Source: Oscillospiraceae bacterium (GTDB lineage Bacteria > Bacillota > Clostridia > Oscillospirales > Ruminococcaceae). From it: a stretch of DNA of 52,670 nucleotides. The stretch's first letter is position 1. Every line of letters begins with the position of its first letter. Positions 1 to 51,452 of this stretch are shown piece after piece. The position numbers and the translations under genes were made by a program. Location: the NCBI GenBank assembly GCA_014799365.1, contig JAAVIF010000073.1, positions 1 to 52,670 on the forward strand. Reading direction: 5' to 3'. The notes under the pieces are model-generated. The model did no database searches and was not told the origin of the DNA. It saw only the letters and a program-made list of their open reading frames with translations.

Positions 1-358
1 AGAGGGGGGTAAGGAAAGGATTCTTAAGAGTGAAAGCGAGCAAGCTCTGATGCCGCCGCATCCTTGCGGCGGTTTGGGCTTGCTCCCGACGGCATCCTGC
101 CGTCCCTAAGGGGGGAGAGTGGGGCAATGAGTTTCACCGATTTTTTCGTGTCCTTGCATGTAAACGCACTTTATTATAAAGCCTGCACTATGTTTTTAAT
201 GAATCCACATAAGGTGAAGCTTATTGCACCTTCTCCCCCCTTCCGAGACTTTTTGCTTGCAAAAGGTCTCTTAGTCACCCTTAAGCCCCGCGCGGGAGCG
301 CAAGCTGCACTTCGCTTCCGAGAAAAAGGAAAACACCGCATAAAGTGCAGTTTTAAGA
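1..358 (+). repeat. Dispersed long-stem element, copy A
   Basis: This is one of four related intergenic elements; the others are at 13803-14098, 21330-21600 and 28195-28507. It starts at the window edge and may be cut. Conserved parts are the AGAGGGGGGTAAGGAAAGG head, CTTAAG boxes, a G6/C6 stem (about 107-118 with 231-242), a GCCCCGCGCGGGAGCG block and a 3-prime hairpin ending in GTGCAGTTTT. The apical stem is 121-138 pairing with 213-230. Compared with the other copies, extra hairpins sit at the junction on both sides (about 29-103 and 245-272). A 100-codon reading frame crosses the element but is judged spurious. Confidence 0.8.
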
Positions 359-13047: not shown

Positions 13048-13716
13048 ATGTCAAACGATTTCCCACGAATTTTAACTTTATTGAGAAAAGAAAAAGGTAT
13101 AAGCCAGAAGCAGGCGGCCGAGGAGCTTGGCGTGGCGCAGGCTCTTTTATCGCATTACGAAAAGGGCAAAAGAGAATGCGGTCTTGAATTTCTGCTGAAG
13201 GCGGCTGAATATTACAATGTTTCCACCGACTATTTATTGGGGCGTTCTCCCGTTGCCAACGGCGCGCTTATAACTCATTCCACTATTGAAGAAGCGGAGT
13301 CTCCCGACAAGGCAAAAAACCTTTCGGCGGACGAGCTGGCGGCAGTATTTGCCAAAAAGCTGGTCAACAACAGCGTTGACGTTATTTATTCTTTGCTGGG
13401 AAAGACGAAAAACCCTCAGCTTACCGATAAAATTTATGATATTTTTTCCTGCGCCGTTTACCGTGCATTCAGGCTTATTTATAAGGGCAATCCCGCCAAC
13501 GATGTGAATATGTTCAAAACTCCCGAGGAGGGGGTGGGACAGCTTATTTCCGCGGCGGAGGCTATCGCTACCGCGAAGGCGGAGCTGTCGGTAGCCGCGC
13601 CGGAAGCGGTCGGACCTGTTATCAAGCGTTCGGAATTGGAGGCCGAGTATGGGAAAAGCGCGTCGGTGCTGCTTAATATGGTGATGCATTGTGAGAAGCA
13701 GATAGAGAAGTTGTGA
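13048..13716 (+). CDS. XRE-family transcriptional regulator
   Basis: The 222-residue protein has an N-terminal Cro/C1-type helix-turn-helix (about 6-62) with the usual pattern: RKEKGISQKQAAEELGV, then QALLSHYEKGKR, then LLKAAEYYNVSTDYLLG. A helical region of about 150 residues follows and matches no known ligand-binding domain; it is alanine-rich and may dimerise. The gene stands alone between the phosphatase promoter region and a terminator at 13768. No target can be proposed. Confidence 0.85.
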   Translation: MSNDFPRILTLLRKEKGISQKQAAEELGVAQALLSHYEKGKRECGLEFLLKAAEYYNVSTDYLLGRSPVANGALITHSTIEEAESPDKAKNLSADELAAVFAKKLVNNSVDVIYSLLGKTKNPQLTDKIYDIFSCAVYRAFRLIYKGNPANDVNMFKTPEEGVGQLISAAEAIATAKAELSVAAPEAVGPVIKRSELEAEYGKSASVLLNMVMHCEKQIEKL

Positions 13717-13767
13717 TTTTTGTTTTTCCTCAAACGGCGGAATGCCTTTTTAAAACTGCGTTTTTGG

Positions 13768-13802
13768 CGGCGGTTGCTTTTCGGAGCGGCTGCCGTTTTT
13801 TA
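13768..13802 (+). terminator. Intrinsic terminator after the XRE gene
   Basis: CGGCGGTTGC at 13768-13777 pairs, with wobbles, to GCGGCTGCCG at 13786-13795 and is followed by six T residues. Confidence 0.75.
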
Positions 13803-14098
13803 ATGCTGCGCTTTATGTGGTGTTTTCGTTTCTCGGAAGCGAGTGCAGTTTGCGCTCCCGCGCGGGGCTTAAGGTGACACCAAAGGGGGGCGAAGTCGAA
13901 ACAAGCTCCGAAAAAGTGATGAATAATAGTTGCAATTTTAAAATAAAGAAAGTCTAAGTGTTTGCGGAGCTTGTTCCGACACTCTCCCCCCTTAGGTTTC
14001 ACCTTAAGAATCCCTTCCTTACCCCCCTCTATTGCGTAGTGCTTACGGTTCGTTTTTTTGCTCCATAAAATTATTGCGTGAAATATCACTTATATAAC
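13803..14098 (-). repeat. Dispersed long-stem element, copy B
   Basis: Minus-orientation copy of the element at 1-358. The stem arms lie at about 13868-13914 and 13961-14008. The base carries CTTAAGGTG and the G6/C6 run. The apical stem here is AACAAGCTCCG facing CGGAGCTTGTT, unrelated to the apical stems of the other copies yet still paired. The flank TAAGTGATATTTCACGCA, itself partly palindromic, is shared with copy D. A 119-codon reading frame runs through it and is judged spurious. Confidence 0.8.
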
Positions 14099-14189
14099 TT
14101 GGTTGAATTGTTCAATGTTGGGAATTTACAGAAGTGCTTTATTTATGTTCGTGTCATAGGTGCTGCGTTATTGATTATGTGTTTTCATT

Positions 14190-14410
14190 GGTGATGTTGG
14201 CTGCTCCCATTTGTTAGTGCAATGTATGATTATGCTTGCGCTCCCAATTGGCTTGTACCGCCCTATCCGTTAGAATTGCTCCTTTTTTTATAACTGCCTC
14301 ACAGCGGGGGGCGGAGCCAAATTTTCGCCGTAGGCGAAAATTTTGAAATGCTTCGCATTTCAGCGGGCTGTCGCCCGCGGCTCCGCCGCCGCTCGTCGCT
14401 CTCAACATTT
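14190..14410 (-). repeat. Cloverleaf-like structured element, copy 1
   Basis: In plus coordinates, closing arms GCGGAGCC (14311-14318) and GGCTCCGC (14379-14386) enclose three consecutive hairpins: 14319-14343 (11 bp stem, loop GTA), 14345-14361 (7 bp, loop TTC) and 14363-14378 (6 bp). The outer flank at 14218-14300 is homologous, in reverse orientation, to 23048-23136. The shared text includes GTGAGGCAGTT and TAACGGATAGGGCGG. It follows the HD-hydrolase gene by about 40 bases and may end that operon. Open reading frames in it are not genes. Confidence 0.75.
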
Positions 14411-21248: not shown

Positions 21249-21279
21249 AAAGGGGCTGTAAAAAAAATACAGTCCCTTT
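21249..21279 (+). terminator. Hairpin terminator of the GH53 gene
   Basis: AAAGGGGCTGTA at 21249-21260 pairs with TACAGTCCCTTT at 21268-21279 (one G-T wobble) around an all-A loop. The T-run is weak. Confidence 0.55.
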
Positions 21280-21329
21280 CAAATTAAACAAAAACCGACT
21301 ACTTTACAAAGAGAAACCAACAAATAAAT

Positions 21330-21600
21330 CAGCACTAATATCAGAGGGGGGATAAGGAAGGGATTCTTAAGGTGAAACCTAAAGGGGGGAGAGTGGGTCT
21401 GTGAAAAAGCACAAAGAAAAAACTTTTTCTTGAAAAAAGCCTAATGTAACAGAAAAACGTTGTTTCTGCACATACAATTGAGTGCTTTTTTACAGAACCA
21501 TCTCCCCCCTTTTGGTGTCACCTTAAGCCCCCCGCGGGAGCGGTGCCGCCTGCTTCAGGCAAAAAAAGCATTATATAAAGCGCAATTCTAAGCATTAGCA
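21330..21600 (+). repeat. Dispersed long-stem element, copy C
   Basis: The stem arms are 21366-21412 and 21482-21527. The base is the shared CTTAAGGTG, ACC and G6 stem. The apical stem is TCTGTGAAAAAGCAC facing GTGCTTTTTTACAGA, different from copies A, B and D but paired. The left flank CAGCACTAATATCAGAGGGG is shared in part with copy D. No gene lies between 21223 and 21825. Confidence 0.8.
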
Positions 21601-21703
21601 CAACATAAAAGCCCGTGTGGCATCAAACACAATATTTTTACAGCCCCATTGGTATAATATCTTATTTTTTTACATAAATTGACACAAATTTGAAATTAAA
21701 CAC

Positions 21704-23228: not shown

Positions 23229-23323
23229 GTAATACTATCCCTTTTTAAAAAAGGGATTAGTGTCCCGGGTGCAATCCCATTTTAACCTGTGGGTATTACG
23301 TCAGGTTAAAATGGGATTGGTAT
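23229..23323 (+). repeat. Two adjacent small palindromes before the sigma factor gene
   Basis: The first (23229-23263) pairs ATCCCTTTTT with AAAAAGGGAT. The second pairs AATCCCATTTTAACCTG (23273-23289) with CAGGTTAAAATGGGATT (23302-23318) around TGGGTATTACGT. The second belongs to the 60 bp family seen at 35801, 50835 and 51371. It may act as promoter or operator DNA for the sigma factor gene, which starts 26 bases later. Confidence 0.75.
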
Positions 23324-23348
23324 GAAAGCTTTCAAACGAGGTGTTCAG

Positions 23349-27917: not shown

Positions 27918-28036
27918 AGTATTTCTTGCCGCGCGGAACGCGCGCGGCTCGAAATACGTCCGACACTCCTTGCCGACGCTGTCGGCATTTTTTGCTTCGC
28001 AAAAAAGCGGAGTGTCGGACACGTTAGTGCATTACG
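27918..28036 (+). repeat. Multi-hairpin repeat, copy 1
   Basis: Begins AGTATTTCTTGCC. It holds three structural parts: a GCCGCGCG/CGCGCGGC hairpin; an outer stem GTCCGACACTCC/GGAGTGTCGGAC; and, inside that stem, two hairpins (GCCGAC-GCT-GTCGGC followed by T6, and TTTTTTGC-TTC-GCAAAAAA). It ends GTTAGTGCATTACG. The same unit recurs after the tRNA gene at 28697 and again at 28829. Confidence 0.8.
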
Positions 28037-28194
28037 TAAAGTTGATTTTAAAATTTGTTTAAGTTTTCCCAAAATTTAATGAAAAAATAGAAAAAGAGAC
28101 ATGAACAAAAGAAGCAAGCAACTTGAAGGAAAAACAAACAAACAAATCACCACATAAATGCAAACTACCGACATTTGTCAATTAACAAACTTAC

Positions 28195-28507
28195 TTAAGT
28201 GATATTTCACGCACATATTTTTTGAAGCAAACAACAAAAAAATCAGCACTACGCATAGAGGGGGGTAAGGAAAGGATTCTTAAGGTGAAACCTAAGGGGG
28301 GAGAGTGGGGCAGTAAATTTCGCCGAATTTTCCGCACTAAATATATGATGTTACTTGTCTTAACATTTGTATCAGCAGATGAAGGTGCATTTTAGGCGGA
28401 GTTTACTGCACCTTCTCCCCCCTTTGGTGTCACCTTAAGCCCCGCGCGGGAGCGCAAACTGCACCTTCTTCAAGGTCAAAAAGAACACCACATAAAACGC
28501 AGTTTTA
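28195..28507 (+). repeat. Dispersed long-stem element, copy D
   Basis: The cleanest copy. It has the flank TAAGTGATATTTCACGCA, the head AGAGGGGGGTAAGGAAAGG, stem arms 28279-28325 and 28395-28439, then GCCCCGCGCGGGAGCGC and a 3-prime hairpin AAACTGC/GCAGTTT. The stem base reads CTTAAGGTG-AA-ACC-T-AAGGGGGGAG against CTCCCCCCTT-T-GGT-GT-CACCTTAAG. The apical stem GCAGTAAATTTCGCC pairs with GGCGGAGTTTACTGC. No gene is seen between 28037 and 28561. Confidence 0.85.
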
Positions 28508-28561
28508 AAAAGGCATTTTGCTGACTGAAAAATTTTGTGAAAACTTAAGTAAAATTTGTGC

Positions 28562-28590
28562 TTGCAATTGGGTTCTTTTTGTGGTAAAAT
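28562..28590 (+). promoter_or_regulatory. Promoter of tRNA-Arg
   Basis: TTGCAA at 28562-28567 and TAAAAT at 28585-28590 with a 17-base spacer, about 30 bases before the tRNA. Confidence 0.6.
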
Positions 28591-28621: not shown

Positions 28622-28697
28622 CTGCCCGTAGCACAATGGATAATGCGTTGGACTCCGACTCCAAAGACTGCCGGTTCGACCCCGGCCGGGCAGGCCA
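28622..28697 (+). tRNA. tRNA-Arg (anticodon CCG)
   Basis: Folded by hand. The acceptor stem CTGCCCG (28622-28628) pairs with CGGGCAG (28687-28693); the discriminator is G, followed by an encoded CCA (28695-28697). The D arm is GCAC...ATGC with loop AATGGATA. The anticodon arm TTGGA/TCCAA has loop CTCCGAC, giving anticodon CCG, which reads the CGG arginine codon. The T arm GCCGG/CCGGC has loop TTCGACC. A structured repeat begins on the terminal A of CCA and supplies the likely terminator. Confidence 0.95.
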
Positions 28698-28982
28698 GTA
28701 TTTCTTGCCGCGCGGAACGCGCGCGGCTCGAAATACGTCCGACACTCCTTGCCGACGCTGTCGGCATTTTTTGCTTCGCAAAAAAACGGAATGTCGGACA
28801 CGTTAGTGCATTACGGTATGTGGGCTTTGACGTGCAGAACGCGCGCAGCTCGAAATACGTCCGACAAACCTTGCCGACGCTGTCGGCATTTTTTGCTTCG
28901 CAAAAAAACGGAATGTCGGACACGTTAGTGCATTACGGTATGCGGGCTTTGACGTGTTGAACGCGCACTTTGTATTACGAAA
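28697..28982 (+). repeat. Tandem multi-hairpin repeats downstream of tRNA-Arg (copies 2, 3 and a partial 4)
   Basis: Copy 2 spans 28697-28815 and starts with the A of the tRNA CCA end. Copy 3 spans about 28816-28938. A partial copy (28939-28982) repeats GGGCTTTGACGTG-GAACGCGC and then decays. Each full copy keeps GCCGACGCTGTCGGC followed by T6, which is a good intrinsic terminator, so the first copy should end the tRNA transcript. The outer stems are less perfect than in copy 1. The reading frames crossing the repeats are not genes. Confidence 0.8.
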
Positions 28983-35800: not shown

Positions 35801-35853
35801 ACTGCTCCCTTTTAAACTATGGGTATTACGTCAGTTTAAAAAGGGAGTGGTAA
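35801..35853. repeat. Small palindromic element after mreB
   Basis: CTCCCTTTTAAACT and AGTTTAAAAAGGGAG arms around TATGGGTATTACGTC. A member of the same family as 51371-51430. Here both arms carry C/G where other members have A/T next to CCC/GGG. It starts 8 bases past the mreB stop and could act as a terminator or attenuator. Confidence 0.75.
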
Positions 35854-35860
35854 AATTTGT

Positions 35861-36883
35861 TTAATAGTAGGTCTTTTCGTCGTCGTCAAGCACGTCAACA
35901 AGCTTGTCGATATTTTCGAGTACCGCGCCCGTACCGTCCGCCACACAGTCCAAGGGACGCTCCGCGATCTTAACGGGCATTCCCGTTTCGTGATTTATAA
36001 GAAGATCCAAGCCCTTTAAAAGCGCGCCGCCGCCCGCAAGCATAATGCCCTGGTCTATAATGTCCGCAGCCAGCTCGGGAGGAGTTTTTTCAAGTGTTAT
36101 CTTTATTGCTTCGGTTACATTGCTGAGGGGTTCGGAAAGTGCGTCGCGTATTTCCTCGCTTGTAACTGTGATGTTTTCGGGCAGACCGTTCATCAGGTTT
36201 CTGCCCTTGATGTCCATTACAGGCTCGTTGTCGGCGTAGGGGTAAGCCGAACCAATGCCCATTTTAATGTTTTCGGCCGTTCTTTCGCCGATGAGAAGAT
36301 TGTATTTTTTCTTGATATAGTTGATTATGGAAGCGTCAAATTCGTCTCCCGCCACTCTTACGGAGCGCGAGGTAACGATACCGCCGAGAGAAATAACGGC
36401 AACCTCGCTTGTACCGCCGCCGATGTCCACTATCATGCTTCCGGTTGGCTCCGCAACGGGAAGTCCCGCGCCGATAGCCGCCGCCATAGGCTCCTCTATG
36501 ATAGAAACACGCTTTGCGCCGGCGTTCTGTGTGGCCTCCTTTACCGCGCGGCGTTCAACCGCGGTAACGCCCGAGGGAATACAGATAATAACTCTCGCTT
36601 TAGTGAAAGCCCTGCCCTTTAACGCCTTTTTGATAAACTCCTGGAGCATGCTGGTGGTTATATCGAAATCGGCTATAACTCCGTCCTTAAGAGGTCTTAC
36701 CGCCTTGATGGAGCCGGGAGTTCTGCCGATAACGTCTTTTGCTTCCTGTCCGACATAACGTACTCTGTCGTACTTCACGTCCACTGCAACAACGCTGGGT
36801 TCTCTGATGATGATACCTTTTCCTCTCATGTAAACCAGTGTGTTGGCGGTGCCCAAATCTATGCCTATATCCTTTGTAAACAT
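35861..36883 (-). CDS. mreB: Rod shape-determining protein MreB
   Basis: MreB is an actin-like ATPase that forms membrane-associated filaments and guides side-wall synthesis. The 340-residue product has the actin-fold ATP motifs: [13 protein letters not shown] (phosphate 1), [21 protein letters not shown] (phosphate 2), and [15 protein letters not shown] (adenosine). AGGAGG precedes the ATG at 36883. A 140-base 5-prime leader separates it from the promoter at 37030-37058. First gene of mreB-C-D-PBP2. Confidence 0.97.
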
Positions 36884-51370: not shown

Positions 51371-51430
51371 TAATACCAATCCCTTTTTAAACTGTGGGTA
51401 TTTCGTCAGTTTAAAAAGGGATTGGTATAA
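51371..51430. repeat. Small palindromic element, best copy (60 bp)
   Basis: TAATACCAATCCCTTTTT and AAACTG (51371-51394) mirror CAGTTTAAAAAGGG and ATTGGTATA (51407-51429) around TGGGTATTTCGT. It defines the family found at 23273, 35801, 41353 (half), 48875 (deleted) and 50835. It lies between pyrB and the acetyltransferase gene and may end the pyrB transcript. Confidence 0.8.
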
Positions 51431-51452
51431 GCCGTTCAATAAAACTTCTTTA

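Follow-up and report, generated by a model that had tools for sequence, protein, structure and literature searches.

The stretch of DNA analysed here (the window, 52,670 nucleotides) corresponds to the entire contig C73, which belongs to a 2.69-Mb assembly of 100 contigs, 86.5% complete. A sequence-only reading had described in it a dispersed element present in four copies, here labelled A to D, whose long stem would keep pairing while its sequence changes. The locus raises the question whether a structure, rather than a sequence, is kept in these repeats, and by which means they have been dispersed. The four copies, with all of their described blocks, were found at the reported positions, and the letters of the arms were rechecked. 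The reported coordinates fit approximately the core of the element and fall short of its whole length, which extends over 28058-28549 for copy D, about 21252-21647 for copy C and about 13729-14390 for copy B.

The number of copies proved far larger than four. A repeat search of the same genome, using copy D as a query, returned at least 88 matching stretches (40 of 115 candidates scored). The pattern of the lower-stem arm, with up to 3 mismatches allowed, was found 58+63 = 121 times in the 2.69 Mb, a figure which does not count elements because the pattern fits both arms of each; the reversed control pattern was never found. The tail pattern gave 55 matches, against 0 for its control. Overall, 60 distinct cores with both ends recognisable could be extracted from this genome, one of them of merely 66 nt. 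Contigs often start or stop inside a copy, and the true copy number is thus probably higher than 60.

The core is built of constant blocks, namely a head (AGAGGGGGGTAAGGAAGGGATT), a lower stem that includes a G6/C6 run (CTTAAGGTG...CACCTTAAG) and a hairpin (GCCCCGCGCGGGAGC). Its centre, between the arms, is an apical stem of variable sequence, which encloses an A+T-rich loop. In copy D, on the forward strand, the G-rich head (AGAGGGGGGTAAGGAA..., 28257-28278) is largely conserved in the related genomes G015 and G032, and partly in G007. It is followed by the constant lower stem of the left arm (CTTAAGGTGAAACCTAAGGGGGGAGAGTGGG, 28279-28309), the left side of the apical stem (GCAGTAAATTTCGCC, type II, 28310-28324), its right side (GGCGGAGTTTACTGC, 28395-28409), the constant lower stem of the right arm (28410-28439), the GC-rich hairpin GCCCCGCGCGGGAGC (28439-28453) and a 3-prime part (28454-28507) in which a small hairpin was recognised by eye. 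The stem of the latter, again by eye, varies according to the kind of copy (ACCTT..AAGGT, CTCG..CGAG, GCCTG..CAGGC, TGCACGG..CCGTGCA).

Centres fall into types I, II, III, IV and V within the genome under study, plus a sixth type in G032, so that the earlier statement that the apical stem differs in each copy was too strong: copies group into about six sequence types. Most cores (43 of 60) have plain arms, and the remaining 17 carry at least one extra hairpin; a right-arm insert shows, by eye, matched changes between species (GAGCAAGC/GCTTGCTC versus GGGCAAGC/GCTTGCCC). Copy A (1-358, forward strand) starts at the contig end and has a type I core, with an extra hairpin in both arms and apical arms at 124-138 and 213-227. 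Copy B (13729-14390, reverse strand) has a type III core at 13854-14030, and copy C (21252-21647, forward strand) is a type IV element, with apical arms at 21398-21412 and 21482-21496. The short type V centre (GGGGGAAAATCCCC...) is found inside the same constant blocks in L112, L111 (C5:110064, C5:66054) and copies of G007; in the latter the tail module is repeated in tandem.

The apical arms of copies A, B, C and D pair as previously written, and the matched A-T/G-C changes between copies A and D are confirmed. In order to evaluate pairing on a larger sample, 102 cores were collected, 60 from the same genome and 42 from relatives. Apical arms could be cut by fixed anchors from 66 of them (37 from the same genome); the other 36 lacked an anchor, and type III is absent from the 66. 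Within each type, left arms were then matched with right arms taken from other copies, the score being the number of Watson-Crick plus G-U pairs out of 15. Type II copies (n=17) scored 14.71 with their own partners and 14.16 after permutation, 1 of 10,000 permutations being as good, and copies of the G032 type (n=21) scored 13.81 and 13.02, with 0 of 10,000. By using Watson-Crick pairs alone, 0 of 10,000 permutations were as good for either type. When only distinct arm pairs were retained (12 for type II, 19 for G032), 8 and 0 of 20,000 permutations, respectively, were as good. Examples of G032 pairs are GGCTACGC/GCGTAGCC, GGCTTCGC/GCGAAGCC, GGATTCGC/GCGAATCC and GACTACGC/GCGTAGTC. No covariation signal was obtained for type I (24 copies, one left arm) or type IV (4 copies). 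In these two types of centre, II and G032, what the apical stem conserves is its structure rather than its letters. The more general claim that structure and not sequence is kept thus stands for them and finds no signal in types I and IV. Identical apical sequences had been named as a caveat, and this applies to type I, because its left arm is GCAATGAGTTTCACC in 24 of the 24 copies examined.

Arms of different types were also compared, by using one representative each. Arms of type I or II pair with those of G032 or type IV at 6-9 of 15 positions, and G032 arms with type IV arms at 5, against 14-15 for each with its own partner; types I and II are related, and their arms cross-pair at 13-14 of 15. 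Covariation was further analysed on alignments of 67 of the 102 cores, after exclusion of 14 cores carrying inserts, 6 containing more than three N, 6 belonging to type IV and 9 classified as 'other'. In set A (types I and II, 33 rows) 7 of 55 predicted pairs show at least two kinds of Watson-Crick pair, six of them apical; in set B (G032, 22 rows) 6 of 57 do, three of them apical. Set C (type III, 12 rows) contains no covarying pairs out of 50, and 43 are invariant. In sets A and B RNAalifold also pairs the G-rich head with the tail, a pairing which was not relied on.

The mismatches left in the apical stems are informative as to the molecule which folds. When every different arm pair of type II and G032 is counted once, the top strand shows 41 G.T and 3 A.C mismatches, the 41 being cells and not independent events because related copies share them; 23 others are found in the same arm pairs, 17 of which are C.T. 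Such an excess of G.T over A.C on one strand favours a single folded strand and disfavours a cruciform, which needs both strands. The kept form therefore seems to be one folded strand, either RNA or single-stranded DNA, and the cruciform site put forward in the sequence-only reading loses ground.

Pairing might also be kept by the copying process itself, if the polymerase switched template inside the imperfect palindrome and rewrote one arm from the other (quasi-palindrome correction), with gene conversion spreading whole centres. A survey of the lower arms was performed on the 102 cores, 24 of which lack a simple arm, leaving 78 to be scored. In 2 of these (L128 and L175, both from G032) the right arm is shifted towards the exact complement of the left one, for L175 at two sites, as copying would predict, and a left-arm insert resembles, by eye, the reverse complement of a right-arm insert. 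However, the central mismatch of the lower stem is kept in 76 of the 78 simple arms, and an apical G.T pair is kept in 24 of 24 type I copies, while copying would tend to erase both. Nor would copying favour G.T over A.C to the extent described above. Copying is held to be a live rival, albeit an unlikely one.

The ability of the core to fold was analysed by comparison with 200 dinucleotide shuffles of the copy D core. The predicted RNA fold has an energy of -102.9 kcal/mol, corresponding to a z of -7.3, with 0 shuffles as good; folded as DNA, the same core reaches a z of -7.8. A free-standing structured non-coding RNA, or a leader RNA, with genes that happened to be scattered, would account for the strong fold and the covariation, as well as for constant blocks near-identical across species, the optional extra hairpins and the several alpha copies (a kind of element described below) which, by eye, stop just before a start codon. 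Against this, only tRNA was found in the window by Rfam at gathering score, with no match over the core, and no family was detected between 27850 and 28620 at E up to 10, the best core match reaching 20.3 bits versus a cut-off of 75. The 200 nt preceding the core, in 40 copies, gave a mean promoter score of 6.7, versus 7.7 for shuffles. The core also lies outside the leader of the gene wherever a promoter follows a beta end (see below), and in 12 of the 29 copies to which the script assigned neither a beta nor a type IV right end, the closest ORF downstream is directed at the element. The structured RNA envisaged earlier is compatible with the fold and unproven by Rfam or by the upstream region, and we regard a free-standing or leader RNA as quite improbable.

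Evidence on how the core is dispersed comes from the ends of the elements. Copy D is a complete element of 492 bp (28058-28549, forward strand), of the miniature inverted-repeat transposable element (MITE) kind, here called beta; its inverted ends were located, its length computed and its letters rechecked. It is bounded by 19-bp terminal inverted repeats, TTTAAGTTTTCCCAAAATT on the left (28058-28076) and AATTTTGTGAAAACTTAAG on the right (28531-28549), and flanked on each side by the 9-bp target site duplication TAAAATTTG (28049-28057 and 28550-28558, matching at 9 of 9 positions). A predicted promoter, TTGCAA-17-TAAAAT (28562-28590, forward strand), begins 12 nt past the end of the element and faces a tRNA-Arg (CCG) gene at 28622-28697 on the same strand, identified by ARAGORN and Rfam. 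A second repeat, of about 130 nt, occurs in the window at 27918-28049, 28697-28828 and 28819-28950, flanking copy D and its tRNA gene; it consists of nested hairpins, AGTATTTC../..GAAATAC and TCCGACACTCC../..GGAGTGTCGGA.

Beta elements, defined by TTTAAGTTTCCCC ends, were searched for among the 60 cores. Both 19-bp inverted ends, TTTAAGTTTCCCCAAAATT and AATTTTGGGGAAACTTAAA, with up to 4 mismatches, are present in 12 of them, and the complete copies span 484-600 bp. Direct repeats of 7-11 bp flank 9 of these 12 (6 exact, 3 with one mismatch) and are absent from the other 3, while 0 of 132 swapped-flank controls reach the score. No transposase gene is contained in the complete elements, and the copies in the window are overlapped merely by short mechanical ORFs. 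The suggestion of a non-autonomous mobile element is therefore borne out for the kind to which D belongs by inverted ends and target duplications: elements of this kind are mobile. An empty orthologous site was sought among the sampled loci, and none was established.

The position of the promoter next to copy D is a recurrent one. The best -35/-10 pair was scored beyond 56 distinct end junctions, at either end of the elements. The score is above 11 at 28 junctions, 25 of which have the promoter beginning 10-13 nt from the element end, and the spacer is of 17 nt in 24 of the 28; only 0.46% of shuffled flanks reach a strong promoter at 10-13 nt. No promoter-like score above 8 was found at 20 of the 56 junctions, some of which are the far end of an element. 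Among the 25 copies that have a beta right end, 20 are followed by an ORF directed away from the element and 4 by one directed towards it, the nearest downstream ORF being considered in each case; in 1 copy none was called. At least three copies (L006, L029, L052) have, by eye, a terminator-like hairpin next to their other end, and promoters occur beside left and right ends alike (L138, L140), which fits the near symmetry of the ends.

Such a placement resembles that of the Mutator-like transposases of TnGBS, ISLre2 and some ISKra4 elements, which insert 15-17 bp before the -35 box, in both orientations when their ends are near-perfect complements, according to excerpts of PMC3942029. The likeness with the systems described in that source resides in the fixed distance upstream of sigmaA -35 boxes and in near-symmetrical ends used in both orientations; the differences are a distance of 10-13 rather than 15-17, a structured core and the lack of a transposase gene in the elements, a matching transposase not having been found. 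No ISLre2 transposase was detected in 60 genomes of the genus, nor a UPF0236 transposase in 1 genome, results of little weight since all 14 controls were silent in both searches; an ISKra4 transposase was found in 0 of 9 genomes, with 2 of 14 controls detected and none over the cut-off. Two Transposase_mut frames of the genome under study (420 and 207 aa) were rejected as partners, as no beta end was detected in the surrounding 3.3-4.1 kb, even when 5 mismatches were allowed. An arrangement of ends spanning 2.5 kb, seen in G066 and G082, was also discarded: it encloses a chemoreceptor-like frame (named by eye) and no transposase. In all, ten regions were scanned for ends and two read for ORFs in the search for an autonomous partner with beta ends, and no transposase was found.

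The same core is carried within at least three kinds of ends: beta, alpha and type IV. Among the 60 cores, 12 have both ends beta, 17 both alpha and 4 both type IV; the remaining 27 are interrupted by the end of a contig or locus, carry mixed ends or lie outside the assigned kinds. Alpha copies share the core and its inner flanks, start with a multi-hairpin module and finish with ...CCGCCGATTGAGGA; their ends often adjoin a start or stop codon, and their boundaries show by eye no convincing target duplication or inverted match. Copy B is such an element, its left end being the multi-hairpin module and its right end lying 13 nt past the stop codon of the ORF at 13048-13716; no target duplication was seen. 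On the right side of copy A, a beta inverted end was sought and not found. Type IV elements, as copy C, have the ends GGGGCTGTAAAAA/TTTTTACAGCCCC and, by eye, no clear target duplication. Centres of types I, II and III are each found both with alpha and with beta right ends.

The left end of alpha copies (e.g. 14299-14390 of the window, reverse strand) is a clover-like module, in which an outer stem, GGCGGAGCC/GGCTCCGCC, encloses three hairpins varying among copies; it is perhaps another repeat whose structure is kept. A third repeat family, CCCTTTTAAACTATGGGTATTACGTCAGTTTAAAAAGGG, is found in the window at 23277-23346, 35807-35876 and 51382-51451, and a similar sequence occurs inside the alpha copy L019 and near beta ends.

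Another mechanism would be transposition by a Y1 enzyme acting on the folded single strand, as for REPIN/RAYT or IS200/IS605. It would agree with a hairpin of constant base and compensating variable stem, as described for REPINs in excerpts of PMC3116915, and with the alpha and type IV copies lacking clear target duplications. Nevertheless, beta copies carry inverted ends and target duplications, and the Y1/RAYT domain PF01797 was not found in the one genome searched, that of the window (86.5% complete), while 5 of 14 controls were detected. Transposition through single-stranded hairpins is therefore considered very unlikely.

The distribution of the family was analysed by using copy D as a query on 60 genomes. 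Matches were found in 4, including that of the window, all belonging to one genus, of which 35 other genomes were searched; none of 24 genomes from other families matched. An exact 19-base scan of a genome collection, from which the genome of the window may be left out, returned 48 stretches, all in three assemblies corresponding to G015, G032 and G007. No match to the copy D core was found in phage and plasmid collections, and no stretch of viral contigs contains the exact 19-base core pattern. The repeat family has so far been found in one genus only. Between species, the constant blocks are near-identical; in the copies read, a short centre sits within beta ends in G007, and a centre particular to G032 lies there between type IV-like ends.

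The beta end pattern is found, among the matches listed, in 12 of 60 genomes of the genus, most strongly in G000 (50), G007 (136) and G066 (24). In G066, another species, beta ends bound MITEs of 81 and 153 bp which do not contain the core, with 8-bp duplications in L227 and L230. A chemoreceptor-like gene lies between two 153-bp MITEs with beta ends, at equal spacing in two species, G066 (L225:857-3377) and G082 (L226:1019-3405); in the latter, three of the four MITE ends were detected. The unit of L225 is flanked on its two outer sides by an identical 8-mer, AGAATTAT, suggesting that the MITE pair moved the gene as a composite transposon.

The 42 cores from relatives were also compared with the 60 cores of the reference genome, where the flanks were sufficient. 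Eight pairs share a neighbouring stretch and are putatively orthologous, and in 7 of the 8 the type of centre differs. The L153/L080 pair matches on both sides, the centre having changed between the constant blocks, and L161/L008 is aligned on one side; for the remaining site-matched insertions common descent is likely. Differing centres at orthologous-looking sites would also agree with the copying process discussed above.

The reading which we consider probable is that of a mosaic family of non-autonomous MITEs, in which a structured core, under selection as a folded strand, is carried within at least three kinds of ends, exchanges its centres and is moved in trans by a promoter-seeking DDE transposase. 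Such a transposase would aim at promoters and move the elements, as in TnGBS, ISLre2 and some ISKra4. Selection would act on the top strand folded alone, as RNA when a neighbouring gene is read through, or as single-stranded DNA. Recombination at the constant blocks between copies would swap whole centres, so that a new apical stem would be acquired with its two arms at once. More tentatively, the core could be a unit that folds, as RNA or single-stranded DNA, to serve a function, and that three or more unrelated sets of transposon ends have taken up. It would exchange whole pairing centres among copies, its constant blocks staying almost the same from one species to another, and, as a cargo conserved in shape on promoter-seeking mini-transposons, would insulate or tune neighbouring transcription units; we regard this possibility as doubtful.

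As to known repeats, the closest precedents appear to be REPIN for the hairpin, this being the clearest, BOX for the exchangeable ends, and ERIC and NEMIS for effects on mRNA. REPINs are about 100 bp long; the present elements differ from the REPIN/RAYT system by their 484-600 bp, inverted ends and target duplications, and by the failure to find a Y1 transposase. The likeness resides in constant outer blocks, a variable and compensating inner hairpin (here in two types) and many extragenic copies (PMC3116915, in excerpts); families whose stem has a constant base and a changing apex, of which none had come to mind in the first reading, are thus on record, as REPINs are described much in that way. 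The BOX repeats of streptococci, in excerpts of PMC3049150, similarly have an inner module between different sets of ends, optional modules and a stable predicted fold; unlike BOX, one set of ends is here associated with promoters and target duplications, and variation is located at the tip of a single long hairpin. ERIC and Correia/NEMIS are likewise MITE-like, with long stems, NEMIS existing with and without an internal segment, and are reported to affect mRNA processing or stability when co-transcribed (PMC2229807, in excerpts); they belong to other hosts, and are likened here by description and not by sequence. A limited search of open-licence PMC articles returned no promoter-targeted MITE and no account of this repeat. 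The elements are read as a new mosaic MITE family with a structure-constrained cargo, REPIN and BOX repeats being the nearest to it.

Two things which are usually separate are joined in this family: MITE ends placed at a set distance before promoters, and a hairpin cargo constrained to pair. With at least 60 copies in one genome, and with differing centres at orthologous-looking sites, it provides a natural experiment to distinguish selection from copying errors as the cause by which palindromes persist in mobile repeats. The family also bears on how promoter-targeting transposases recognise their sites.
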